Source: Dactylosporangium sp. AC04546
GTDB taxonomy: Bacteria; Actinomycetota; Actinomycetes; Mycobacteriales; Micromonosporaceae
Assembly (NCBI RefSeq): GCF_022095675.1
Contig: NZ_JAHYSG010000042.1
Span: 1 to 64,000 of the forward strand
Direction of reading: 5' to 3'
Length of the DNA: 64,000 nucleotides
The first letter of the stretch is position 1. Every line of letters begins with the position of its first letter. This document shows positions 15,932-29,406 of the stretch, one piece after another. The translations under genes were made by a program, and so were the position numbers. The notes below the pieces were generated by a model. It was not told the DNA's origin and searched no databases. It saw nothing but the letters and a program-made list of their open reading frames with translations.

Positions 15932-16290
15932 CTAGGGCAGCGTCCACTTCTGGTTCGCCGCCCCGGCGATGCACGTCCACAGGTGCACCACCGTGCTGTC
16001 CGCCGAGTTGTTGCCGGACACGTCCAGGCACTTGCCCGACTGCGGGTTGCGCAGCGTCCCGTCCGACTGCGGAGCCCAGTTCTGCGCTCCGCTGCCGTTG
16101 CAGGTCCACAGCTGGATCTTCGTCCCGTCGGCCGACCCGCCGCCCGAGACGTCCAGGCACTTGCCGAGGGCCCGCAGCGTCTGCCCGTTGCGGGTCCAGG
16201 TCTGCGCCCCGCTGCCGTTGCAGGTGTACAGCTGGATCTGCGTCCCGTCGGCCGTCCCCGAGCCGCGCACGTCGAGACACTTGTTCGCCA
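15932..16290 (-). repeat. ricin-lectin coding repeat, copy A
   Basis: The 3' ~360 bp of this gene, which encode the beta-trefoil, are highly similar in DNA to the 3' end of the neighbouring gene (18093-18450). The first ~115 bp differ at only about two positions by eye. This is beyond what protein constraint needs and suggests recent duplication or gene conversion. Confidence 0.7.
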
Positions 16291-18022
16291 GCCCGCGAAT
16301 CGGCCCGACGCCGGACGAGGGAGTCTTGACGAAGGTGAAGTCGTCGACGTCGAACAGCCCGGTGCCGGTGCCCGTGAAGGTCAGGAACACGTTGGCCGTT
16401 CCGCTCGGCACATTGGCCAACGGGGCCGTCACGTTCGCGAACGTCTCCCACCCACCGGTGTTCGGCACCGTGACCGTGCCCAGGATCGGCCCCGTGGCCG
16501 AGCCGGTGCGGACCTGGATCTGGCCGCCTGGCCCGCCGGACACGACCCGCGCCCGGAACGAGGTGGCACCGCCGACGTTGACGCCGTTGTAGCCCGCCCA
16601 GTCACCCGGTTCGATGTAGCCGAGGGTCTGGCCGTTGTTGGCGCCGGGCTTGGTGAAGGGCTGCGCGCCGTTGACCGAGCTGTACGACTCGGCCTGCACG
16701 GTCACATCGCCGCCGGCGACCGTCCCCTCCTTGATCCGGATGTTGCGGAAGGCCACCGTGTCGCCGGCGCCGTGGTTCTGGATGCCGATGTACCCGTCGA
16801 GGTTGCGGTTCGGGTCGGTGTTGGTGAAGTCGTTGATCAGCGAGCCGTTGAGGTACACCCGGATCCGCTGGCCCTCGACGAGCAGCTCGTAGGTGTTCCA
16901 CTCGCCCGGCGGGTTGAGGGCGGCGTCCCGCGCCGCGATGTCGGCGGACTTGAACGTGTAGATCGCGCCCGTGGTGCGGTCGGCGGCGTCGGTGGCGTCG
17001 ATCTGGATCTCGTACCCCTGGTTGACCGCCACCCACGGGTCGGTTCCCGGGTTCGGGAAGCCGACGAAGATCCCGGAGTTGCTGTCGCCGGTCATCCGCC
17101 AGTCGGCCTTGAGCGAGTACGAGGTGAACTGCTTCCCGGAGTACCAGAGCAGCCCCATGCCCCCGACGGAGGTCAGGGTGGCGTCCGAGTTGGTGAAGCT
17201 GCCGGGCCCGGCCTGCGACCATCCGGTCGTCGAGCCGTTGAAGAGGGTGGTGTACCCCGACTCCGGCCGGCAGTCGGCCTTCGCCCGCTTGGCCGCGTAG
17301 CGGATGCCGCCGAGCAGTTGGCCGCGGAAGTTGCTGTCGGCGTAGGACTCCTGGGTGTGCCCGAAGCCGGTGTAGAACGACCGTCCACTGTCGATGGTCT
17401 TGCACCAGGTGATCGGGTGGTCGGCGCCCATCGAGCCGCCCGAGTAGGTCGACTCGTCGAGCGTGGCGAGCACGCGGGCCGTCGAGCGCGGGTTGGTCTG
17501 GTAGTTGTACAGCTCGTCGGTGCGGACCCAGCTCTGCGGCAGGTGCGCCGTCGCCGGGTGGGCCCGGTTCTCGGTGCGCGACGTGACCTGCTGGATCGCC
17601 GGGTGGGACGCGAAGTACGCGCCGACGAGTTGGCCGTAGAAGGCCCACGAGTACTCGGTGTCGGCGGCGGCGTGGACGCCCACGTAGCCGCCCCCGCCGC
17701 GGATGTACGACTCGAAGGCCGTCTGCTGCGTGTCGTTGAGCACGTCACCGGTGGTGCTGAGGAAAACGACCGCCTCGTACTGCGCGAGGTTGCCGGTCGT
17801 GAACGCGGCGGCGTCCTCGGTGGCGGTGACCGTGAAGTTGTTCGCCGCGCCCAGCTGCTGGATCGCGGTGATGCCGGCCGGGATCGAGTCGTGCCGGAAC
17901 CCGGCGGTCTTGGAGAATACGAGCACGTCGTAGGGCGCGTCGGCGGCCTGGGCCGCCGTCGAGTAGAGGGTGCAGGCGGCGAGGGCGACGACGGTGCCCG
18001 CAACGGCCAGCAGTTTGCGCAT
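15932..18022 (-). CDS. secreted ThuA + 3-keto-disaccharide hydrolase-like + CBM6 + ricin lectin protein
   Basis: 696 aa. A signal peptide is followed by a ThuA domain (~30-260, starting YDVLVFSKTAGFRHDSI; related to trehalose-utilisation and class I amidotransferase-like folds). Next is a DUF1080/3-keto-disaccharide hydrolase domain (~270-437, FNGSTTGW...GIFVGFPNPG...YEIQIDA), a CBM6 module (438-566, IEPGDWAGYNGVNV) and a ricin-type beta-trefoil (573-696, three QxW-like repeats, each GKCLDVSG-type). It probably acts outside the cell on 3-keto-glycosides or similar oxidised glycans bound by the lectin modules. ATG at 18022 has GGGAG 7 nt upstream. It lies 70 bp downstream of the sugar dehydrogenase gene on the same strand, so an operon is likely. 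Confidence 0.85.
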   Translation of the reverse strand: MRKLLAVAGTVVALAACTLYSTAAQAADAPYDVLVFSKTAGFRHDSIPAGITAIQQLGAANNFTVTATEDAAAFTTGNLAQYEAVVFLSTTGDVLNDTQQTAFESYIRGGGGYVGVHAAADTEYSWAFYGQLVGAYFASHPAIQQVTSRTENRAHPATAHLPQSWVRTDELYNYQTNPRSTARVLATLDESTYSGGSMGADHPITWCKTIDSGRSFYTGFGHTQESYADSNFRGQLLGGIRYAAKRAKADCRPESGYTTLFNGSTTGWSQAGPGSFTNSDATLTSVGGMGLLWYSGKQFTSYSLKADWRMTGDSNSGIFVGFPNPGTDPWVAVNQGYEIQIDATDAADRTTGAIYTFKSADIAARDAALNPPGEWNTYELLVEGQRIRVYLNGSLINDFTNTDPNRNLDGYIGIQNHGAGDTVAFRNIRIKEGTVAGGDVTVQAESYSSVNGAQPFTKPGANNGQTLGYIEPGDWAGYNGVNVGGATSFRARVVSGGPGGQIQVRTGSATGPILGTVTVPNTGGWETFANVTAPLANVPSGTANVFLTFTGTGTGLFDVDDFTFVKTPSSGVGPIRGLANKCLDVRGSGTADGTQIQLYTCNGSGAQTWTRNGQTLRALGKCLDVSGGGSADGTKIQLWTCNGSGAQNWAPQSDGTLRNPQSGKCLDVSGNNSADSTVVHLWTCIAGAANQKWTLP

Positions 18023-18092
18023 GGTCACTCCCTTCAACGAGTGAACCAGGGTGGGCGCCCGCGTGGCGGCGCGAGCGCCCACGCTCGGGTGA

Positions 18093-18450
18093 TTACGGCA
18101 TCGACCACTTCTGGTTCGCCGCACCGGCGATGCACGTCCACAGGTGCACCACCGTGCTGTCCGCCGAGTTGTTGCCGGACACGTCCAGGCACTTACCCGA
18201 CTGCGGGTTGCGCAGCGTGCCGTCGGCGTTGGGCACCCAGTTCTGCGCGCCCGTGCCGTTGCACGTCCACAGCTGGACCTTCGTTCCGTCGGCGGTGCCG
18301 CCGCCGGAGATGTCCAGGCACTTGCCGAGGGCCCGGAACGTCTGGCCGTTGCGGGTCCAGACCTGCGCCCCGGTGCCGTTGCAGGTGTACAGCTGGATCT
18401 GCGTCCCGTCGGCCGTGGCCGCGCCACGTACGTCGAGGCACTTCCCGGCC
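18093..18450 (-). repeat. ricin-lectin coding repeat, copy B
   Basis: Partner of 15932-16290. It encodes the C-terminal beta-trefoil of the sugar dehydrogenase, with near-identical nucleotide sequence at the extreme 3' end and increasing divergence further 5'. Confidence 0.7.
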
Positions 18451-20927
18451 AGCCCCTTCACCGGCCCGACCCCGGTGCCACCCGGGCCGGTCGTGAACGT
18501 CCACGAGTCCAGGTCGAACAGCGCAGCCGTCGTGGCGCCGGAGAAGGTGAGGTACAGCGAGGTCGTCCCGGCCGGCGCGTTGCTGATCGAGCCGGTGACG
18601 GTCGTGAACGTCTCCCACGAGCCGGTCACCGGGACGGTCGCCGAGCCGATGATCGTGCCCGTCGGCGAGCCGGTGCGCAGCTGCAGCGTGCCGCCCGTAC
18701 CGCCCGACGAGACCCGGGCGCTGAACGAGGTCGCGTTGTTCACCTTGTACGGGTCGAACTGAATCCAGTCGCCGTTGTGGATGTCGCCGACGGTCTTACC
18801 GCCCTCCGCCGTGGTCTTGGCGAACGTGTTGATGCCGGAGGACGTCTTGAAGTGCTCGGCCTGGCGGTGCCGGGGCTGCAGGATGTTCTGGGCGTGCGTG
18901 GTGAGCCCGCCCTTGTCGGTGTACGACGCGTCGAAGATCGGGAAGATGTTCGCAGCGTCGTCGTGCTCACCGTCGACCGGGATGTTGATCGTGCCCGAGC
19001 AGCCCGCCTGGGACGTGATCTGGTGGGCGTGCTGGTCGTGGCCGAGCACGTAGGTCATGGTGACCTTCGTGCAGTCGATCGCCCCGTCCTCGGGGTCGGT
19101 CACCGTGACGCTCCACGGCACCGCGTCGCCGAACGACACCAGCTGCCCGGACGACGGCCCGTGGATGGTGATCGTCGGCGCGGTGTTGCCCACGCTGATG
19201 AGCACGCTCGCCGAGCCGGTCGCGCCCTGCGGGTCGCGCACGGTCAGGGTGGCCGAGTAGTTGCCGTTGGTGGAGTACGTCTTCGTCGGGTTCGCGGCGG
19301 TCGACGTGGTGCCGTCGCCGAACGCCCACGAGTAGGTGAGCGCACCGCCCTCGGGGTCGGACGAGCCGGCCGACGAGAACGTCACGGCGAGCGGGGCCGC
19401 GCCCGACGTGCGGTTGGCGCTCGCGACGGCCGTCGGGGCCCGGTTGCCGCCGGCGACGTAGTCGTAGCGGTAGAGCGCCGAGTTGGCGTCGCCGTTGAAG
19501 TAGCCGGTGCCGTAGTCGAGGACGTACAGCGAGCCGTCGGGGCCGAAGGCCATGTCCATGACCTGCTTGCCGTTCCACGGGAACGTGTCGATCGCGCCCG
19601 GCGAGCCGTCGGCGTTGAGCTTGATCGGCTTGATCCAGCCGCGGCCGAACTCGCCGGCGAAGAACATATTGTCCAGCGCCTGCGGGAACTTCGTGGCCGA
19701 CGGGTTGGCCGCGTCGTAGTGGTAGACCGGACCGGCCATCGGCGACTCGGAGCCTCCGCCGAACTCCGGCGGGGTACCGGCGTCGCCGCCGTAGCGGATC
19801 CAGGACGGCTTGGCGGCGGGCAGGGTGGTCAGGCCCGTGTTCCGGAACGAGTTGTTCGTCGGGCCGCCGGTGCAGTTGTACTTCGCGGCGCCGGTGTTGG
19901 TGGCGAAGTCCCACTCGTTGTAGGTCTCGTTGGCGGTGTTCGTGCCGGTGCAGTACGGCCAGCCGAAGTTGCCGGGCGCGGTGATCCGGTTGAACTCGAC
20001 CTGGCCCGACGGGCCGCGGGTGGCGCTGGTGGTGCCGGCGTCGGGGCCGTAGTCGCCGACGTAGACCACGCCGGTCGCCTTGTCGACGCTCATGCGGTAC
20101 GGGTTGCGGAAGCCCATCGCATAGATCTCGGGCCGGGTGTTCGCCGTGCCGGGCGTGAACAGGTTCCCCGACGGGATCGAGTAGGTGCCGTTGGCGTTCA
20201 CCTTGATCCGCAGGATCTTGCCGCGCAGGTCGTTGGTGTTGCCGGCGCTGCGCTGCGCGTCGTAGGCGGGGTTGCGGTTGGTCCGCTCGTCGATCGGCGA
20301 GTAGCCGGCCGAGTCGAACGGGTTGGAGTCGTCGCCGGTCGACAGGTAGAGGTTGCCGGCCGCGTCGAAGTCGATGTCGCCGCCGACGTGGCAGCAGATG
20401 CCGCGGTTGGCCGGCACGTCCAGGACGGTGACCTGGCTGGCCATGTTGACCGTGAAGTCGGCGTTGAGTGTGAACCGGGACAGGCGGTTGACCCCGGTCC
20501 AGGTGGCCCAGTCGGTGGCGGTACCGGTGGCCGGCGCGTCGCCCGCGGGGGTGCTCAGCGGGGGCGCGTAGTAGAGGTAGATGTACCGGTTGGTGGCGAA
20601 GTTCGGGTCTGCGGCGACGCCCTGCAGACCCTCCTCGTCGTGGGTGTACACGGGAATGTTGGCGATGACGGTCGTGGTGCCGCCGGCGTCGGTGCGCCGG
20701 AGCGTGCCGTTGCGGGCGGTGTGCAGGACCGAGCGGTCGGGCAGCACCGAGATGGCGAGCGGCTCGCCCACCTCGGGTTCGCCCTTGGCCAGGGTGACCT
20801 GCTGGAAGTCGGCGGCATTGATGGCCGCCGCCGCGGGGGACGCGGGGCCGGCGAGGACGCCTAACCCGCTGGAGACGAGCAGAACGGCGACGGCTGACGA
20901 CCGCCACCTCGAGGGCTGATGGTTCAC
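18093..20927 (-). CDS. secreted PQQ-type sugar dehydrogenase + PKD + CBM6 + ricin lectin protein
   Basis: 944 aa. A signal peptide (cleavage near PAAAAINAA) is followed by a soluble glucose/sorbosone dehydrogenase-type six-bladed propeller (~35-470: EPLAISVLPDRSVLHTARNGTLRR, HDEEGLQGVAADPNF, GDYGPDAG). This family uses PQQ to oxidise sugars outside the cell. A PKD domain follows (~480-570, YSWAFGDGTTSTAANPTKTYS), then a CBM6-like module (~690-815) and a ricin beta-trefoil (821-944). GTG at 20927 has GGAAGGGA upstream. It precedes the ThuA protein gene, with which it shares its C-terminal lectin architecture and probably a transcript. Cofactor and substrate are family-based inferences. Confidence 0.85.
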   Translation of the reverse strand: MNHQPSRWRSSAVAVLLVSSGLGVLAGPASPAAAAINAADFQQVTLAKGEPEVGEPLAISVLPDRSVLHTARNGTLRRTDAGGTTTVIANIPVYTHDEEGLQGVAADPNFATNRYIYLYYAPPLSTPAGDAPATGTATDWATWTGVNRLSRFTLNADFTVNMASQVTVLDVPANRGICCHVGGDIDFDAAGNLYLSTGDDSNPFDSAGYSPIDERTNRNPAYDAQRSAGNTNDLRGKILRIKVNANGTYSIPSGNLFTPGTANTRPEIYAMGFRNPYRMSVDKATGVVYVGDYGPDAGTTSATRGPSGQVEFNRITAPGNFGWPYCTGTNTANETYNEWDFATNTGAAKYNCTGGPTNNSFRNTGLTTLPAAKPSWIRYGGDAGTPPEFGGGSESPMAGPVYHYDAANPSATKFPQALDNMFFAGEFGRGWIKPIKLNADGSPGAIDTFPWNGKQVMDMAFGPDGSLYVLDYGTGYFNGDANSALYRYDYVAGGNRAPTAVASANRTSGAAPLAVTFSSAGSSDPEGGALTYSWAFGDGTTSTAANPTKTYSTNGNYSATLTVRDPQGATGSASVLISVGNTAPTITIHGPSSGQLVSFGDAVPWSVTVTDPEDGAIDCTKVTMTYVLGHDQHAHQITSQAGCSGTINIPVDGEHDDAANIFPIFDASYTDKGGLTTHAQNILQPRHRQAEHFKTSSGINTFAKTTAEGGKTVGDIHNGDWIQFDPYKVNNATSFSARVSSGGTGGTLQLRTGSPTGTIIGSATVPVTGSWETFTTVTGSISNAPAGTTSLYLTFSGATTAALFDLDSWTFTTGPGGTGVGPVKGLAGKCLDVRGAATADGTQIQLYTCNGTGAQVWTRNGQTFRALGKCLDISGGGTADGTKVQLWTCNGTGAQNWVPNADGTLRNPQSGKCLDVSGNNSADSTVVHLWTCIAGAANQKWSMP

Positions 20928-21162
20928 GGGTGTCCCTTCCTGACTACAGGTGCCAGGCAGGGCGCGCGCCGCCGCGCCGGAGCCGATACGGCATTCACGT
21001 CCTGTAACCGCGCCGAACGGATACATTGATGACGCACTCTGAGTGCCGTGGGGGACACACTAGGGGTTTCGGCTCAGACTGTCCATACTTTTCGATGTCT
21101 GCTCGAAAGTTCGGTTTGGACGATCGAAAGCCGCCCCGAAACGGGTGCCTATGCTGGGTGCC

Positions 21163-21811: not shown

Positions 21812-22726
21812 TCAGCAGGTCTCGCGCCAGGCGTCCAGGTCGAGCTTCTTCTTCATCGACGAGAACCGCAGCGCCTTGACCTTCGGGCAGAACGAGCCGG
21901 TCGAGCCGTCGTACTCGACGTGGAAGACCGGCTTGCCGGCGTCGACGAAGACCTTGAGCGTGTCGCACTCGTCGTACCGCGCGCACTCCTCGTTGACCGC
22001 GAAGTCGAACGCCGGGGCCAGCTCGCGGGCCTGCTCGACGTCGTTCTTGAGCCCCACGGCCAGGCCGTGGCGGTGGGCCAGGTCGGCGACCCGGCGGTTG
22101 AATGTGAGCTGGTCGGCGGCGGTGAGCGGGAAGCCGCTGCTGTTGCTGTAGCCGTCGACGTTGTCCGGCTCGACCGCGTCGAACCCCTTGTCCCTGCAGG
22201 TCTTGAAGCGGGCGGACAGCAGCGGCTCCAGCACGTCCCAGCGCCGCACGTCGAGCCACTTCTCCCCCGGCCAGCCGTCGAGGCCCTTGCCCTGCACCGA
22301 CTCGGGGAAGTTCCTGGCGTCGGCCCGGAAGTCCTCGTGCGCGCCGACGTTGACGTAGCAGATGACCCGCCGGCCCTTGCCCTTCAGCGCCGCCACGTCG
22401 GCCTTCGAGGTGTTCTCGCCGTCGACGTCGTACACCTCGGCCTCGACGTTCTTGTCGAGCGTGCCGGTGAGTTGCCACTGCCAGGTCATGCCGACGGCCG
22501 GTCTCCACCAGCCGCCGGCCGCCGGCGGCGGTCCCGATGTGCTCGGTGCGGCCGGGGCCGATCCCAGACCATCCACTCCGGACGGTCCGACGCCGGCGGT
22601 GTGCGGGGCCTGGCGCGACGGGTCGGGCACCGTCCGGCCGTCGCCGCCGCCGGTGCACGCCGCCGCGTAGCCGGCCACGACCAGCATCAGCGCGCAGAGG
22701 ACGATCCGCAGGCCGCGGTCGGTCAT
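21812..22726 (-). CDS. lipoprotein GH114 endo-alpha-1,4-polygalactosaminidase
   Basis: 304 aa. A lipoprotein signal (AAAC, Cys24) and Pro/Ser linker (~30-72) are followed by a GH114 TIM-barrel: WQWQLTG at 82-88, VICYVNVGAHEDFR at 121-134, the catalytic-site strand GFDAVEPDNVDGY at 181-193, and NEEC at 245-248. GH114 enzymes cut alpha-1,4-linked (N-acetyl)galactosamine polymers; the fungal counterpart is Ega3. The protein should sit on the outer face of the membrane. ATG at 22726 overlaps the stop of the spherulin-4 gene (ATGA), so they are coupled. It is the last gene of the galactosaminoglycan locus and may release, trim or recycle the polymer. Confidence 0.87.
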   Translation of the reverse strand: MTDRGLRIVLCALMLVVAGYAAACTGGGDGRTVPDPSRQAPHTAGVGPSGVDGLGSAPAAPSTSGPPPAAGGWWRPAVGMTWQWQLTGTLDKNVEAEVYDVDGENTSKADVAALKGKGRRVICYVNVGAHEDFRADARNFPESVQGKGLDGWPGEKWLDVRRWDVLEPLLSARFKTCRDKGFDAVEPDNVDGYSNSSGFPLTAADQLTFNRRVADLAHRHGLAVGLKNDVEQARELAPAFDFAVNEECARYDECDTLKVFVDAGKPVFHVEYDGSTGSFCPKVKALRFSSMKKKLDLDAWRETC

Positions 22727-23349
22727 CTGGCGGCCGCCCGTTCCCGCAGCGACGAGGGCAGCCCGTGGTACGGCAGCGGCGCCTGCAGATCGGTCACCAG
22801 GCCGTGCGGGGCGCGCGAGAGCAGCAGCGCGGTCGCCGTGCCGAGCTGCTCGGCCGGCACGCCGTAGACCAGGTGCGCCGCGTTGGGCCAGTCGCGCCCG
22901 CCCGGAGCCTCCACGTAGGACTCCCATGGTCCCTCGAAGGTACACACCACGTCGGCCAGCGCCGCGTACCCGGGCAGCGGGCGGGTGCCGGGGTTGAGCA
23001 CCACCGAGCCGCGGACGGCCCGCACGACCTGGGTGACGTACCGCAGCCCGGCCGCGTCCGACGGCACCTGGTCGAAGAAGATCCCGCCGACCGGGTACTG
23101 CGCCCAGCCGACCATGTCGCACCAGACCTCGCCGTTGGCCCGGTTGCCGTAGTCGAGGTCGACGTAGCCGAGCATGCGCACGCCGAACCGCTGCAGGCGC
23201 GCGGTCGCCACGGCGTACACCTCGTCGCGCCCGGCGCCGGGCCCGTCGTGGATGTTGACGATCGCCGTCGGGCGCTCGGCGGTGCGGCACAGGGCGTCCC
23301 ACGCGTCGGGGTCGACGAGCGGGTGGACGTACATCGGCAGGAGCATCAT
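22723..23349 (-). CDS. spherulin-4 family (GH135-like) glycoside hydrolase
   Basis: 208 aa without a signal peptide. It is a compact TIM-barrel of the spherulation-specific family 4: MYVHPLVDPDAWDAL, VNIHDGPGAG (32-40), GYVDLDYGNR (61-70), GIFFDQVPSD (89-98), CTFEGPWESY (136-145). Fungal Sph3 of this family (GH135) is an endo-alpha-1,4-N-acetylgalactosaminidase needed for galactosaminogalactan synthesis. Residue 94 is Gln where, as I recall, Sph3-type enzymes have the second residue of an Asp-Glu pair, so activity may be altered. The first Met codons overlap the upstream membrane-protein stop (ATGA), and the 3' end overlaps the GH114 start. Without a signal peptide it may act in the cytoplasm, or on the polymer at the synthase. 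Confidence 0.82.
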   Translation of the reverse strand: MMLLPMYVHPLVDPDAWDALCRTAERPTAIVNIHDGPGAGRDEVYAVATARLQRFGVRMLGYVDLDYGNRANGEVWCDMVGWAQYPVGGIFFDQVPSDAAGLRYVTQVVRAVRGSVVLNPGTRPLPGYAALADVVCTFEGPWESYVEAPGGRDWPNAAHLVYGVPAEQLGTATALLLSRAPHGLVTDLQAPLPYHGLPSSLRERAAAR

Positions 23350-24782
23350 CGGTAACTCTCCGGATCACGCAGGACCAGCGCCGCGACGGCGAGGCCGGGC
23401 AGGGCCGCCCCGAGCAGGGTCGCGACGGCGAGGGTTTCGGCGAAGGCGGGCGCCACCTGCACCAGGGCCGGCGCCCAGTGCCCGACGCCCGCGACGAGCA
23501 GGGTCGGCCACCACACGACGATCGCCGCGGTGCCGGCCCGGCCGTGCGCGGCGAGCACGAGGCACAGCGCGTACACGCCGGTGAGCAGCACCGCCGCGGC
23601 GAACGCCTGGCCGCCGGGCGGGTGCGCGCCGAGCCACACCGCGCCGGCGACCAGCGCGCCGGCGACGACGGGCAGGCTGAGCACGGCGACGGTGCCGGCG
23701 CTGATGCCGCCCAGCCGGCGGTCAAAGGCGAACCGGTCGGCCAGCGACGCGCGCGCGTGCGCGATCCGGCGCCGGTGCCACACCAGGGTGAGCTCGATCA
23801 GCGGTACCCCGAGCAGCAGCGGCACCGCCTCGACCGGCAGCCGGTGCGGCGCGATGCCGTCGAGGGCGACCGTGCGCAGCAGGGCGGCCTGCCCGGTGCC
23901 GACCAGGCCGTACAGCAGCGCGTACCCGACGTCGTAGCGCCACGACCGCCAGCGCCGGCGGCCCCTGCGCGTCGGGTCGCGGCGCACGACCGGCAGGTAG
24001 GCGACCAGGAGCACGATGGCCACGCCGACGAGGAGGCCCACCACGGCCGGCCGCCCCCACCCCGCGGCGATCCCGGCGGCGGCCAGCCAGCACGGCACGG
24101 CCGCCGCGAGCACCGGCCGCTCCCGGTTGGTGACCAGCGCGACCGACGCGACCGCGAACAGGGCGAGCTGGACGGCGGCGACCAGGTACGCCCGGGCCCC
24201 GGTGCCGAGCAGCACCGGCGACCACAGCGCGGCCAGGCCGGCGAAGCCCATGCCGAGCAGCCGGGCGGCGGCCGTGGTGCCGTGCTCGGAGAGGGCGCGG
24301 TAGCCGAGGTACGACAGCGCCTGCCCGCCGCCCCAGCCCAGCAGCAGGGTGCCGGTCGTGGCCAGCGCGGGTACGCCGTCCACCTGGGCCGACGCGCCGA
24401 GGCCGATGGCGAGCGGGGTGAGGTAGATGAACGCGCGCACGAGCGTGTCGACGACGACGGTCCGCACCCGCGGGCCCTCGGCCGGGAACACCGGATAGGT
24501 GAGCGTCTCGGCGTTGTCGTACGTGCGGGCGACGACCCGGCCGGCCAGCGCGAACACGGACGGCAGGCCGTACTCGCGGTCGGCCACGCGGTCGTTGATC
24601 CCGTTGGCCTCCAGGATGGCGGCGATCTCGTCGACGTCGACGGCGCCGACGCAGTCGTCGCGCATCCGGTCGGCGAGGGCGGACACGGGGTCGGTGCTGA
24701 CCCGCCCGACGAAGCGCAGCGACTCGCCGCTCAGCGGCGGCTTGCGCTGCGCCGGGACGACGATCAGCGAGTCGGCGCTCAC
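23346..24782 (-). CDS. 12-TM membrane protein, candidate PelG-like exporter/synthase partner
   Basis: 478 aa. A cytoplasmic N-terminal region of ~100 residues (including VDEIAAILEANGINDRVADREYG) is followed by about 12 transmembrane helices between ~108 and 472, with a large basic cytoplasmic loop near 258-272 (RRDPTRRGRRRWRSWRYD). I do not recognise it from sequence motifs as classical PelG; its N-terminus differs. It sits directly after pelF and has the same helix number as PelG/MOP transporters, so a role in exporting the chain made by PelF is inferred. GTG start, and no clear ribosome site. The 169-bp gap before it is filled by the GATGCATC array. The stop is coupled to the spherulin-4 start. 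Confidence 0.7.
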   Translation of the reverse strand: MSADSLIVVPAQRKPPLSGESLRFVGRVSTDPVSALADRMRDDCVGAVDVDEIAAILEANGINDRVADREYGLPSVFALAGRVVARTYDNAETLTYPVFPAEGPRVRTVVVDTLVRAFIYLTPLAIGLGASAQVDGVPALATTGTLLLGWGGGQALSYLGYRALSEHGTTAAARLLGMGFAGLAALWSPVLLGTGARAYLVAAVQLALFAVASVALVTNRERPVLAAAVPCWLAAAGIAAGWGRPAVVGLLVGVAIVLLVAYLPVVRRDPTRRGRRRWRSWRYDVGYALLYGLVGTGQAALLRTVALDGIAPHRLPVEAVPLLLGVPLIELTLVWHRRRIAHARASLADRFAFDRRLGGISAGTVAVLSLPVVAGALVAGAVWLGAHPPGGQAFAAAVLLTGVYALCLVLAAHGRAGTAAIVVWWPTLLVAGVGHWAPALVQVAPAFAETLAVATLLGAALPGLAVAALVLRDPESYR

Positions 24783-24795
24783 GCGACGGCCCGCA

Positions 24796-24943
24796 CTCGC
24801 ATCGGTCCTGCTACATCAGGCTTGATACATCCGCCGTGATGCATCGCGAATGATGCATCAAAACCGATGCATCTGTCTTGATCCATCGTGTGTGATGCAT
24901 CCAAACCGATGCATCCGAGTTGATGCATCAGGGCTGATGTGGG
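24796..24943. repeat. 14-bp-period array with palindromic core GATGCATC
   Basis: The core recurs exactly every 14 bp, starting at 24824, 24838, 24852, 24866, 24880, 24894, 24908 and 24922. Six of the eight are perfect GATGCATC; the others are GATACATC (24824) and GATCCATC (24880). Degenerate units flank it at 24796 (CTCGCATC), 24810 (GCTACATC) and 24936 (GATGTGGG). The 6-bp spacers vary (CGCGAAT-type, AAAACC, TGTCTT, CAAACC and others). The array fills the pelF to membrane-protein gap, overlaps neither coding region, and is markedly less GC-rich than its surroundings. A 14-bp period gives one repeat of the pattern in protein every 42 bp, but the reading is not gene-like. Confidence 0.9.
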
Positions 24944-24951
24944 CGGTGCGC

Positions 24952-26385
24952 TCATGCGGGCACCAACTCCGGCGCCGGGGCCGCGGCGGTGAGGGCTGTG
25001 TAGCGGTCGCGGTACGCGGTCAGGCAGCGGTCGAGGGTGTGCTCCGCCAGCGCCCGCTCGCGGCCCCGCCGGCCGGTCGCCGCGCGCAGCTCCGGCGAGG
25101 TGAGCAGCGACACGCACGCCTCGGCGAACCCCCGCGGGTCGCGTGGCGGCACCACCAGGCCGGCGTCGCCGACCGCCTCGGCCACGCCGCCGACGTCGGT
25201 GCTCACCGTCGGGCGGCCGCACATCATGGCCTCCAGGACGGTGTACGGCATGCCCTCCGAGATGCTGGACAGCGCCGCCACCTGGCCGGCCGCGAACGCG
25301 TCGCGGCTCGACGCGCACGGGCCGGCCCAGGTGACCGCGTCCTGCACACCCAGCTCACGGGCGACGGCCCGGCAGGTCGCCGCGTACTCCTCGTTCCCAG
25401 CCGGCACCGGACCGGCCAGGTGCAGGCGCGCCCCGGGCACCTCGGCGCGGACCAGGGCGAGCGCGCGGATCAGCGTCTCCAGGTCCTTGAGCGGGTCGAT
25501 CCGCCCGACCCAGGAGATGACCGGCTCGGGCGGCTCGTCGGCGAGCGGCGCGAAGCGGGCCGGATCGACGCCGTTGCCGATCACCTGGATCTTCGCCGGG
25601 TCGGCGCCGTGGCGGGTGGCCCACCGCGAGTTGAAGCCGCTCACCGGTGTGATGAGGTCGGCCTCCCAGTACGCGAGCCGGGCCAGCGCGCGGTGGAAGC
25701 GCAGCAGGGCGGTCTTGACACCGGCCGGCTGCGGGCCGGCGGCGAGGTAGCGCTCCCGGAGGTACACCCCGTGCTCGGTCATCATGAAGGGCACCCCGAG
25801 TCGCCATTTGGCGGCCAGCGCGACCATCGCCGACAGCCCGTTGGCGTTGGCGTGGACCAGGTCGGCGTCCGCCGGCAGGGCTGCGGCGAGCGGCCGGAGT
25901 GCGTGCTCCAGCAGTACCGCCGAATCGTCCGCGTCCCGCAGGGTCATCCGCGGCAGGGACAGGCCCTCGAACCGGGCCCGCGCCCAGGCGTCCAGGAGGA
26001 TGTCGGCGAGCGGCGTGCCGGCCAGTGGATGCCGGCCGGACGCACGCAGGAACCGTTTCTCGGTGGCGATCGCCGCCAGCTCACGCAGGCCCTCGCCGAA
26101 GACGACCAGGTCGGCCGCGGTGTCGCCGAGCATGCCCCGGCACAGGCGCGCGGCGGCCCGGTGCGGCCGGCCGCGCGCCGGGCGGGCCGGGCCCCAGACC
26201 GGCACCGCGGAGAGCGACCGGACGTTGCCGGGCAGTTCCATCGCGGGCCGGTCGGGCTCGGTGCCGACGATGGCCACCAGGTCCCACTCCACATCGGACA
26301 GTCCGCCCACCAGCTGGTCGCACCAGGTGCTGACCCCGCCGGTGACGTACGGGTAGGTGCCTTCGTTGACGAGGACGACGCGCAC
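24952..26385 (-). CDS. pelF: GT4-family glycosyltransferase PelF
   Basis: 477 aa. The N-terminal signature VNEGTYPYVTGGVSTW (residues 6-21) is diagnostic of PelF. The C-terminal half has the GT-B donor-site pattern (WVGRIDPLKDLETLIRA, then SSISEGMPYTVLEAMMCGRPTVSTDVGG). PelF is a soluble cytoplasmic glycosyltransferase that polymerises a galactosamine-containing polymer, in Pel from UDP-GalNAc. The upstream galE can supply UDP-galactose/GalNAc. GTG at 26385 follows the deacetylase stop by 10 bp, with GAGGA about 8 nt upstream. Unlike Gram-negative loci, no pelB, pelC, pelD or pelE is nearby. In the fungal pathway the corresponding GT domain is part of Gtb3. Confidence 0.92.
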   Translation of the reverse strand: MRVVLVNEGTYPYVTGGVSTWCDQLVGGLSDVEWDLVAIVGTEPDRPAMELPGNVRSLSAVPVWGPARPARGRPHRAAARLCRGMLGDTAADLVVFGEGLRELAAIATEKRFLRASGRHPLAGTPLADILLDAWARARFEGLSLPRMTLRDADDSAVLLEHALRPLAAALPADADLVHANANGLSAMVALAAKWRLGVPFMMTEHGVYLRERYLAAGPQPAGVKTALLRFHRALARLAYWEADLITPVSGFNSRWATRHGADPAKIQVIGNGVDPARFAPLADEPPEPVISWVGRIDPLKDLETLIRALALVRAEVPGARLHLAGPVPAGNEEYAATCRAVARELGVQDAVTWAGPCASSRDAFAAGQVAALSSISEGMPYTVLEAMMCGRPTVSTDVGGVAEAVGDAGLVVPPRDPRGFAEACVSLLTSPELRAATGRRGRERALAEHTLDRCLTAYRDRYTALTAAAPAPELVPA

Positions 26386-26395
26386 GGCCGAATCC

Positions 26396-28405
26396 TCAGC
26401 TCGGCAGGCGCAGCAGCTGCTGACCGTTGCGCGGGACGGACCGCCAGGCCGAGCGCTCGCCGCCGTAGGCGTCGCCGAACGCACCGCCGCCGACCTCCAG
26501 GCCCAGCAGCGAGAGCGTCACCAACTTGGTGCCGTTGGGCGTGGTGAGCGGCACGTCGACCGTCGCGCCCTTGTTGACGATCGTCACGCGGCCGTCCAGC
26601 GTGTACGCCTCGATGCTGCCGTTCTGCACCGCGGCGCGCCAGGCCGCGACCCGCGCGTTCTGCTGCGCGGTCTCGGCGAACTTCGGGTTCACGACCGGGG
26701 TCGCCGCGGTGTAGGTCGCGCGGTAGCGGGCCAGGATCGCGTCGAGCACCGGGTAGAGGACCCGGTCCTCGGCCAGGTTCGACTGGTGCGCGTAGTGCGG
26801 CGCCGGGTTGCCCGAGACGACGTGGTCGTAGGCGATGCGCGCCTCCGTCGGCACGATGTACTCCCGGAAGCCGCTCGCGTCGAGCGGGTCGATGCAGGTG
26901 GAGGTCGCGGGGTTGGCCTCACAGATCCCGCTGCCCCCGTCGGCGCGGCTGGTGTAGATCCAGTTGTACTCGTCGACCTCTTCGGCGACGGTCGCGACGT
27001 TGTAGTAGATGTTCATCGGGAAGCGCGGCACGGTCGTGGCGTTGCCGACCGCCCGGGCCGCCTGCTCGCGGGAGGCGTCCGAGGCGATGTACCTGATCCC
27101 GGTCGCGTTCAGCGCCGGCGCGAGGTTCGGGTTGTCGGCCGGCATCTGCGGGAGCGTCCTCAGGCCCGAGTGCTCGCCGGTGACCAGCTCGGCCGCGTCG
27201 ATCGCGATGCCCCTGCCCCGGGCCCAGTCGGCGTTGTTCCTGATCTGGGCTGTGATGTCGGCCTGCGACACCCACTGGGTGGTGCACCGCCACGGGGTGA
27301 CGCTGAAGTCCTGCACGCAGCCGAGGTACGGGTGCTCGTAGGTGTGGTTGATCCAGCGAAACTGGGCCTTGTTGGTGAGGTATGCGCTGGTCAGCGGGTC
27401 ACCGGCGCCCGCCTCGACGCTGCCGCCGCCGTTGAAGACCATGTCCAGCTTCACGCCATTGGCCCGCTGCCACGCGATGGCCGCCCGGACGTCGTCGGGC
27501 GTCATGCGGATGGTGGTGTTGTACGGCAGCACCGCCGGGTCCCGCTGGGGGTTGCAGTCGTCGCCGACCGTGCAGTTGTGCACGGTGTCCCAGCGGTCGT
27601 CAGGCAGGAAGACGTCATCGATGTGCACGCTGAAGAAGTTGCGCGTGATGCCGAGGTGCACGCCTCGGGTGAGCCAGGTGACGAGGCCGTGGCCGAGCTC
27701 CATGGCGTGGGTCTGGTTGCGGTTGGCGGCGAGGGTGACGACCAGCTCCTCGCGTCCGTCGTGCTCGTAGACGCCGAGCAGCGAGCCGTTCGCGCCCCGG
27801 GTCGCGCCGGTGACCAGCGGGGTGAAGGTGGCACCGGCGGCCGGCTTGCCCAGATATCCGTAGGACTCGATCACCTGGGGATCACGGTCGTCGATGCGGA
27901 CCGTGCCGGCCAGGTAGCCGAAGCCGGCCGCTTTGCCGGCGTCCGTCACCGTCATGGCGGCGCCGTCGAGGGTGCCGCTCCACGCGAGGTCCAGGCCCAC
28001 GGCCGGGTTCGCCCAGGTGTACGCGTCGATCTGGCGGATCTTGAACTCGCGCTCGAAGTCGGCCAGGGCGGTTGCCTCGGCGCCCGCGACGGCGCTCTCG
28101 TTGGGGACGACGACGCCCTGGAACTTGGCGCGGCGGGTGCCGCTGACGCTGTCGGCGAGGTACGCGGCGGTGATCTGCGGGCGCCCCTCGGTGCCGAGCG
28201 CGACCGTCGTGGAGGGGACGCCCTCGCGGTCGAGCTGGGCGCGGAGCATGTCGATGCCGGTGCTGCCGTCGTCGAGGACCAGGACGCGGAGGTCGATGCG
28301 CTGCTTGGGGGCGGCCGCGAGGGCCGGTTGGGCGAGGGCGATACCGGCGGCGCCGACGAGGGCCAGCGCCCCGGCGACGATCCGGCGGCGGACGCGGAAC
28401 TTCAA
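26396..28405 (-). CDS. secreted polysaccharide deacetylase, PelA/Agd3-like
   Basis: 669 aa. A signal peptide (about 1-31) is followed by an N-terminal beta-rich region (~38-250, possibly carbohydrate-binding). The deacetylase domain starts at NFFSVHIDDVFLPDD (257-271). Asp263/264 fit the catalytic base and metal Asp, and HTYEH (354-358) supplies the H-x3-H metal pair. The multi-domain size and motif order fit exopolysaccharide N-acetylgalactosamine deacetylases such as fungal Agd3, better than small CE4 enzymes; this is judged from memory of the family. Two Cys pairs (278/284 region, ~363/375) suggest disulfides. TTG start at 28405 with GAAGGAG upstream. It lies between galE (26-bp gap) and pelF. 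Confidence 0.85.
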   Translation of the reverse strand: MKFRVRRRIVAGALALVGAAGIALAQPALAAAPKQRIDLRVLVLDDGSTGIDMLRAQLDREGVPSTTVALGTEGRPQITAAYLADSVSGTRRAKFQGVVVPNESAVAGAEATALADFEREFKIRQIDAYTWANPAVGLDLAWSGTLDGAAMTVTDAGKAAGFGYLAGTVRIDDRDPQVIESYGYLGKPAAGATFTPLVTGATRGANGSLLGVYEHDGREELVVTLAANRNQTHAMELGHGLVTWLTRGVHLGITRNFFSVHIDDVFLPDDRWDTVHNCTVGDDCNPQRDPAVLPYNTTIRMTPDDVRAAIAWQRANGVKLDMVFNGGGSVEAGAGDPLTSAYLTNKAQFRWINHTYEHPYLGCVQDFSVTPWRCTTQWVSQADITAQIRNNADWARGRGIAIDAAELVTGEHSGLRTLPQMPADNPNLAPALNATGIRYIASDASREQAARAVGNATTVPRFPMNIYYNVATVAEEVDEYNWIYTSRADGGSGICEANPATSTCIDPLDASGFREYIVPTEARIAYDHVVSGNPAPHYAHQSNLAEDRVLYPVLDAILARYRATYTAATPVVNPKFAETAQQNARVAAWRAAVQNGSIEAYTLDGRVTIVNKGATVDVPLTTPNGTKLVTLSLLGLEVGGGAFGDAYGGERSAWRSVPRNGQQLLRLPS

Positions 28406-28431
28406 CGTGCTTGCTCCTTCGACGGGGATTG

Positions 28432-29406
28432 TCAGGCGGCTTGCGCGACTGCTTCCTGGGAGTCGCCCGCGGCGCTGCGCACGATGGCGTCGAGGCCGTG
28501 GCGGGCGCGCCAGCCGAGGCAGGCGAGGATGCGGGCGGGGCTGGCCACGACGGCGGCGGGGTCACCGGGCCTTCTCGGGGCGGCGTCGTACGGCAGGCTG
28601 CGGCCGAGCGCCCGGGACACGGCCGCGATCATCTGCAGTACCGAGGCGCCCTCACCCCGGCCGATGTTGAGGACCTCGTCGCGCAGCTCGCCGCGGTGCA
28701 GGGCGAGCGCGGCCCGCACGTGGGCGTCGGCGATGTCGGCGACGTGGACGTAGTCGCGCACGGCGGTACCGTCGAGCGTCGGGTAGTCGGTGCCGTAGAC
28801 GGTCGCCGGGATGCCGAGCGCGGCGGCCCGCAGCAGGCGGGGCACGAGGTTGGTGCCACCGTGGTCGCGCAGGTGCGGCTTGGCGGCGCCGGCGACGTTG
28901 AAGTACCGCAGCGCGGCCCACCGGAACCCGCCGCTCGCGGCCGCGTCCCGCAGCATCCACTCGCCGACGAGCTTCGTCCGCCCGTACGCGTTCTCGGGCG
29001 CGGTCGGGTCCTGCTCCCGGACCGGCGACCGGCGCGGTGTGCCGTAGACGGCGGCGCTGGACGAGAACAGCACCGACCTGGTACCACTGCCGGCCGCCGC
29101 GTCGAGCACGGCGCGCAGCCCGTCGAGGTTGTCCTGGTAGTACCGCAGCGGGTAGGCGTTGGACTCGGCGACGTCCTTGCGGGCGGCGAGGTGGATCACG
29201 CCGTGCGGCTGGTGCCGCCGGAAGATCTCCCGCATCGTGACCCCGTCGCGGACGTCGGCCCGCACGAGCGGCACTCCGAGCGGCAACCGGTTGGCGCGCC
29301 CGGTCGACAGATTGTCGACGACGATCGATTCGATGCCCGACGCCCCGAGGGCGTTGACGATGTGCGCGCCGATGTAGCCGGCGCCTCCGGTGACGAGCCA
29401 TCTCAC
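28432..29406 (-). CDS. galE: UDP-glucose/UDP-GlcNAc 4-epimerase
   Basis: 324 aa SDR enzyme. NAD-binding GGAGYIG at residues 7-13, DNLSTG at 31-36, the SSSAAVYG serine strand, and the catalytic YGRTK (Y-x3-K) are all present. GalE interconverts UDP-glucose and UDP-galactose and often UDP-GlcNAc and UDP-GalNAc. As first gene of the galactosaminoglycan locus it would supply UDP-GalNAc to PelF, as uge3 does in the fungal pathway. GTG at 29406 with no obvious ribosome site, so it may be leaderless. The promoter should lie in the inverted-repeat-rich gap upstream. Confidence 0.92.
   Translation of the reverse strand: MRWLVTGGAGYIGAHIVNALGASGIESIVVDNLSTGRANRLPLGVPLVRADVRDGVTMREIFRRHQPHGVIHLAARKDVAESNAYPLRYYQDNLDGLRAVLDAAAGSGTRSVLFSSSAAVYGTPRRSPVREQDPTAPENAYGRTKLVGEWMLRDAAASGGFRWAALRYFNVAGAAKPHLRDHGGTNLVPRLLRAAALGIPATVYGTDYPTLDGTAVRDYVHVADIADAHVRAALALHRGELRDEVLNIGRGEGASVLQMIAAVSRALGRSLPYDAAPRRPGDPAAVVASPARILACLGWRARHGLDAIVRSAAGDSQEAVAQAA

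Follow-up and report, generated by a model that had tools for sequence, protein, structure and literature searches.

A probable galactosaminogalactan-type operon in Dactylosporangium and related Actinobacteria, with a candidate exporter and a predicted cytosolic GH135 protein

Galactosamine polymer systems and the Dactylosporangium operon

The galactosaminogalactan (GAG) cluster of Aspergillus fumigatus, whose product is a sticky polymer that holds hyphae together, comprises uge3, gtb3, agd3, sph3 and ega3, and the same functions are clustered in a six-gene operon of Dactylosporangium sp. AC04546. This operon runs on the minus strand, from 29406 to 21812, of a stretch of 64,000 nucleotides (contig NZ_JAHYSG010000042.1, positions 1 to 64,000; hereafter the window) in a 13 Mb assembly. 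Operons of this kind and the fungal parallel have mostly been in print since 2020, when Bamford et al. reported Agd3 homologues in 45 bacterial species, 35 of them in a tree, with 30 of these 35 within or close to operons that encode predicted carbohydrate-active enzymes (PMC7229062; papers are cited here for the parts of their text that were at hand). Each of those operons encodes a glycosyltransferase together with a multispanning membrane protein; GH114 is highly consistent, spherulin-4 occurs in some agd3 operons of Actinobacteria, and support was seen for transfer from bacteria to fungi (PMC7229062). The same paper cites, for Streptomyces walls, low levels of a polysaccharide that contains galactosamine and, for S. 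griseus, an endo-alpha-1,4-galactosaminidase. The window operon is of the same kind (Agd3, cytoplasmic glycosyltransferase, membrane protein, GH114, spherulin-4), and the question raised in a preliminary description of the window, whether the actinobacterial form had been described, is answered by that paper. What is new is the proposed exporter, a protein of twelve transmembrane helices (12-TM), the proteins in which a single chain comprises both PelF and the 12-TM part, the predicted location of the spherulin-4 (GH135) protein and the conserved gene order; in the available text of Bamford et al. the membrane protein is unclassified and the location of GH135 is not commented on.

In the fungus, glycosyltransferase and membrane helices are united in Gtb3, called a putative transmembrane glycosyltransferase by Lee et al. 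2016 (PMC4817252), whereas the window has separate pelF and 12-TM genes; going by that description, the Gtb3 layout is the one found in the bacterial one-chain proteins. Sph3 is described as membrane-bound and as probably cutting the chain leaving Gtb3 on the outside (PMC12054363), whereas the window GH135 has no export signal. The Gram-positive pelDEADAFG operons share PelF, a membrane exporter, a deacetylase and sometimes galE and a hydrolase with the window (PMC7112168, Whitfield et al. 2020), but here a CE18 enzyme replaces PelADA, GH114 and GH135 replace PelAH, and the 12-TM protein fails the PelG model.

The genes and their families

The features of the operon, in the order of transcription, are:

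28432..29406, minus strand: galE, UDP-glucose 4-epimerase family (TIGR01179, 319 bits), proposed source of UDP-GalNAc/UDP-Gal
26396..28405, minus strand: CE18/Agd3-like polysaccharide de-N-acetylase with a CBM87-like N-terminal domain; N-terminal signal by reading
24952..26385, minus strand: pelF, GT4 family glycosyltransferase, polymerase subunit (NF038011, 177.1 bits; PF11997, DUF3492)
24812..24939, no strand: palindromic GATGCATC units repeated every 14 bp between pelF and 12TM, a dispersed repeat
23346..24782, minus strand: 12-TM MOP-fold membrane protein, proposed translocase for the polymer, whose N-terminal helical domain is conserved
22723..23349, minus strand: GH135 (spherulin-4) glycosidase homologue without signal peptide (PF12138, 104.4 bits)
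21812..22726, minus strand: GH114 endo-alpha-1,4-galactosaminidase homologue (PF03537, 282.2 bits); hydrophobic N-terminus, then Cys

The six genes lie on one strand where the preliminary description had placed them, and the motifs it quoted are present (EGTYPYVTGGVS in PelF, HIDD and HTYEH in the deacetylase). Its "coupled starts" apply, by coordinates, to the 12TM/GH135 and GH135/GH114 junctions, which overlap by 4 bp each, but not to galE/deacetylase, deacetylase/pelF and pelF/12TM, which are separated by 26, 10 and 169 bp, the last gap filled in part by the GATGCATC array. The start of pelF is most likely at 26385. The gene identities proposed there are confirmed by family matches for GalE, PelF, Spherulin4 and GH114, and by fold and residues for the deacetylase.

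GalE exceeds the cut-off of the TIGR01179 equivalog (262.3 bits) and is the proposed supplier of UDP-GalNAc (UDP-N-acetylgalactosamine) and UDP-Gal, judging from its family. The position that we take, from alignments, to be equivalent to the gatekeeper Tyr299 of the E. coli enzyme is Val. PelF passes both its models, the NCBIfam equivalog NF038011 (cut-off 100) and PF11997 (137.8 bits against 23.3; E 7.9e-40).

The deacetylase has the three-domain fold of Agd3. Its HIDD motif supplies D263/D264 and its HTYEH motif H354/H358, and the catalytic positions of CM1-CM4 (D263, D264, H354, H358, R461, H540) are invariant in 40/40 sequences, a correspondence in which the rows that place CM3 and CM4 score weakly and CM2 was matched by motif. 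These 40 sequences (set A2) come from the window protein and the 120 matches listed of 2788; at E<=0.01, 25/40 match PF25115, 20/40 CBM87 and 4/40 HSNSD-CE. The nearest named homologue is from D. sucinum (91%). A hydropathy test of the N-terminus is positive in only 10/80 deacetylases and is uninformative for this protein, because the match already spans the signal region. Action on an alpha-1,4-GalNAc polymer is its putative function.

GH114 is far above the cut-off of PF03537 (27 bits) and matches Ega3 (6oj1) at E 2.8e-56, with 43.6% identity to the Ega3 entry 6ojb over 225 aligned residues. Ega3 is described as an endo-alpha-1,4-galactosaminidase (PMC7229062), and the GH114 of F. solani is 33% identical to it (PMC12054363). 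The bacterial protein would thus be nearer to Ega3 than the F. solani one is, which fits the idea of transfer. In a comparison test reaching 90 residues upstream, 50/57 GH114 proteins have a hydrophobic N-terminus; GH114 is probably exported and possibly a lipoprotein, with a strict lipobox pattern in only 32/57, the window protein not among them.

GH135 is above the cut-off of PF12138 (30.2 bits) and matches Sph3 (5c5g) at E 8e-10. The catalytic positions D93 and E139 are invariant in all 65 sequences, one from the window and the others from 64 loci. The position that follows the nucleophile Asp is Gln in 64/65, against Glu in Sph3. The catalytic pair of Sph3 is printed as Asp196/Glu222 (PMC12054363), and D166A is named as inactive (PMC8546845); counting along the alignment, we take the Asp of Sph3 to be D166. 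A second Spherulin4 match lies outside the operon in the host assembly (G000:C92:100-702).

The preliminary description saw in the locus a mirror of the fungal set. Function by function the match stands, but the mirror breaks at GH135, which has no export signal, unlike extracellular Sph3. In fact, none of the 64 loci has a hydrophobic N-terminal window in its GH135 (score >60; reach 70 residues upstream), and the window frame contains no start codon further upstream. GH135 is therefore predicted to stay in the cytosol, where it would act before export. We know of no precedent for a cytosolic GH135.

PelF and its proposed membrane partner

The 12-TM protein is without a match in Pfam and NCBIfam, and a PDB sequence search with its profile returned no row at E<=1, but among the folds listed by fold searches it has the 12-TM fold of the MOP superfamily. 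Its nearest named homologue is from D. roseum (83%). It fails the PelG family model: PF16933 has no match at E<=1 in the window protein, in the 45 members of set A1 (45 of the 73 sequences at hand, that is, the window protein and 72 matches, one of them the window's own) or in the whole genome. A direct profile comparison with PelG was not significant (hhalign, probability 0.2, E 0.35).

Proteins that unite PelF with the 12-TM part in a single chain offer an indirect route. At least 45 such database proteins are found among the 120 matches listed of 133 from a search that admitted long proteins, counting those in which the part behind PelF scores >20 bits with the 12-TM profile and runs on for more than 380 residues to the end of the protein. 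One is P0205 (E 7.8e-44); another, P0265, bears the name Caldilineaceae and lies on a 14.3 Mb contig. We used 44 of the 45, dropping P0199, whose C-terminal half looks frame-shifted; set A3 holds 22 of the 120. The 12-TM family aligns with the fused part of these proteins at probability 99.7 (E 3.5e-26), and the fused part with PelG at 82.9 (E 9.3e-6 over 366 columns), whereas the MurJ control gives 4.0 (E 0.01) with the 12-TM family and 0.3 (E 0.19) with the fused part; the PelG and MurJ profiles were built from 11 and 14 sequences. A homologue in genome G352 reaches 20.6 bits on PelG, where the cut-off is 29. As far as profiles tell, then, 12-TM protein and PelG are connected by intermediates and not by a direct link.

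These chains, seen at the protein level in database entries, support the proposal that PelF and the 12-TM protein together stand for Gtb3. No row is named as fungal among the 120 matches listed, most of which are without a name. Apparent fusions in G496 and G476, from a phylum search with the fusion alignment, were rejected when the DNA proved to hold two abutting genes with an in-frame TAG between them.

Distant actinobacterial PelF/12TM neighbours, L151 (in G496, the single in-frame TAG between the abutting genes) and L152 (in G352), keep different company: proteins of 711 and 714 residues that match nothing in Pfam, to which L152 adds a HEAT-repeat protein.

Conservation of the operon and its surroundings

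Scanning a single genome of each species for relatives of the deacetylase led to 533 confirmed stretches, of which the best 80, all actinobacterial by their titles and most of them from Streptomyces, were fetched. These are near relatives (48% identity and up), so the count of gene orders describes such relatives; it covers the 67 loci with >=7 kb downstream and omits 13 shorter ones, although one of these (L048) also carries all five genes. The order Agd3-PelF-12TM-GH135-GH114 is found at 53/67 loci, nine of them with galE in front, and the Agd3-PelF-12TM core at 65/67. The other classes are nine loci without GH114 at the threshold, three without GH135, one with GH135 only beside Agd3 and one with Agd3 alone. 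The full order recurs in several genera, and all six named Dactylosporangium loci carry the full set. The 12-TM protein is matched in 17/61 relatives searched, and in 7/7 genomes of the genus, the window genome included.

To this we can add a sample of 296 genomes of the class, drawn without regard to deacetylase or spherulin-4. The deacetylase is present in 18 of them (7/115 genera) and Spherulin4 in 23, both counts appearing, by size and handles, to use the same genomes; 17 of the 18 deacetylase genomes have both (Fisher p ~1e-21, for genomes that are not phylogenetically independent). Spherulin4 lies within 8 kb at 20 of 23 deacetylase places (24 rows, two from G068 being joined), at about 3 kb in ten, about 6 kb in seven and nearer in three. 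The clustering of these genes is more than chance, and the expectation that the set co-occurs in other genomes is upheld by the neighbourhood survey and the sample alike. Some genomes (G115, G200, G239) have two deacetylase places each, one with Spherulin4 at about 3 kb and one at about 6 kb, perhaps because a single organism can harbour both of two forms of the operon.

Around loci L031-L110, mostly Streptomyces, common flanking families occur in up to 63/80 cases upstream and 52/80 downstream, by eye with aminopeptidase and lipoamide dehydrogenase on one side and cobalamin genes on the other. Clustering of the neighbouring frames gave antisense frames and genes that adjoin the operon on the chromosome.

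The GATGCATC array is a dispersed repeat and no conserved part of the operon. The assembly holds 46 adjacent pairs on 21 contigs, mostly with a 14-bp period and variable 6-bp spacers, a reversed control pattern gives zero adjacent pairs in the same assembly, and 12 further array stretches that were read have the same design. None of six congener stretches that surround the 12-TM gene (L010-L015) holds a copy, and a role as operon control element was set aside in view of this absence and of the dispersal over the genome. Among these six stretches pelF and 12TM are seen to abut in L011 and L012 only, and gaps of roughly 90 and 140 bp separate the called frames in L033 and L035. L015 has a different duplicated stretch near the same junction, so that the pelF/12TM gap may be an insertion hotspot.

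Beyond a TetR gene, at 15932-21026, lie two large enzymes, both with CBM6 and ricin-B lectin domains, one combining ThuA and 3-keto-disaccharide hydrolase, the other a glucose/sorbosone dehydrogenase.

A proposed mechanism, its rivals and its meaning

We think it likely that this is a synthase-dependent exopolysaccharide operon of the GAG/Pel type, making a partly deacetylated, cationic polymer. From the gene order, families, folds, catalytic residues, conservation and one-chain proteins we infer the sugar, its linkage, the export route, protein localisation and the biological role, which would be hyphal aggregation or attachment. GalE would supply UDP-GalNAc (and UDP-Gal), and PelF, at the cytoplasmic face, would polymerise alpha-1,4-linked N-acetylgalactosamine, perhaps with galactose. 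PelF and the 12-TM MOP-fold protein would form one unit that moves the polymer through the membrane as it grows. On the outer side, the CE18 deacetylase would strip some acetyl groups, leaving a cationic polymer that adheres to the hypha, and the exported GH114 would cut deacetylated stretches for remodelling or release. In the cytosol, GH135 would act on chains that are still fully acetylated, cutting them at the synthase or behind it, to clear stalled chains or limit their length. Such trimming or clearing on the inner side is not known as a step of Pel or GAG. A bolder version, in which Actinobacteria have a GAG synthase of PelF and a MOP partner edited by cytosolic GH135, and fungal GAG derives from it by transfer and fusion, we regard as speculative and rather doubtful.

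Several results weigh against a GAG/Pel-type operon. Agd3_CE scores 22.0 bits on the window deacetylase, below its curated cut-off of 27.6, and membership in the family rests on fold and residues for this reason. The 12-TM profile is slightly nearer MurJ than PelG, neither being significant, and a cytosolic GH135 could mean another role for this protein. Neither pelD nor pelE was seen among the six genes or the scanned direct neighbours, where no PelD/PelE profile search was made, and B. cereus needs both for its Pel biofilm (PMC7112168); with no PelG match either, a Pel operon proper was set aside. The best-ranked matches in the open-access literature included no experimental work (polymer chemistry, mutant) on such an actinobacterial operon that we recognised. 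Lastly, L045, a locus of the longer-distance kind, has extra sugar-nucleotide genes between 12TM and GH135, namely a short-chain dehydrogenase/reductase (SDR) gene, a nucleotidyltransferase gene and a second SDR gene (names by reading), so that some relatives may build on a monomer other than GalNAc.

That last locus also speaks for the same machinery with another monomer, an amino-sugar or mixed polymer to which GH114 and GH135 have adapted. L081 and L099 have a weak GalE-like match at the same place, in G009 a weak Agd3 homologue stands with PelF and 12TM ahead of a gene that by eye resembles a nucleotidyltransferase and of two with weak likeness to GalE, and galE stands in front at only nine of the 67 loci at the threshold used. 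Yet the likeness of GH114 to Ega3, the conserved GH135 residues and galE in the window operon itself point to GalNAc/GalN (galactosamine), and we consider another monomer unlikely. A purely degradative or remodelling locus, acting on the GAG or Pel of other microbes, could account for the deacetylase, the two hydrolases and the large enzymes with lectin domains close by, but PelF and a MOP-fold membrane protein suggest synthesis, the Agd3-PelF-12TM core is kept at 65/67 loci, and GH135 lacks an export signal; this explanation is hardly credible.

A last proposal concerns the role and is compatible with a GAG/Pel-type polymer, namely that it forms the sporangium matrix of Dactylosporangium, with GH114 as the releasing hydrolase. 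Actinoplanes missouriensis, of the same family, Micromonosporaceae, has a polysaccharide matrix that relies on three clusters, imp, wps-1 and gsf, as well as on the dedicated hydrolases GimA/GimB (PMC12691653, PMC13390465), and homologues of GimA/GimB were not found in Dactylosporangium (PMC12691653). The presence of the 12-TM gene throughout the genus and of the full set at its six named loci would agree. Against this, most of the fetched loci are from Streptomyces, which are not known to form sporangia. The Actinoplanes clusters, moreover, are of Wzx/Wzy or GtrA type (PMC13390465) with GH5 hydrolases, and the terms PelF and GH114 appear in neither Actinoplanes text as available (PMC12691653, PMC13390465). 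A matrix role thus seems quite improbable, and a general hyphal role is likelier because so many of the operons are from Streptomyces.

Streptomyces and their relatives are the leading producers of antibiotics, and their clumping in liquid culture hampers fermentation. If our reading is true, such a conserved operon, with a cationic galactosamine polymer as its product, would provide a handle on pellet formation, beside the known poly-GlcNAc (poly-N-acetylglucosamine) of MatAB. It would also offer non-pathogenic bacteria in which to study GAG-type machinery, and would allow the published proposal of a bacterial origin for the fungal cluster to be tested concretely.

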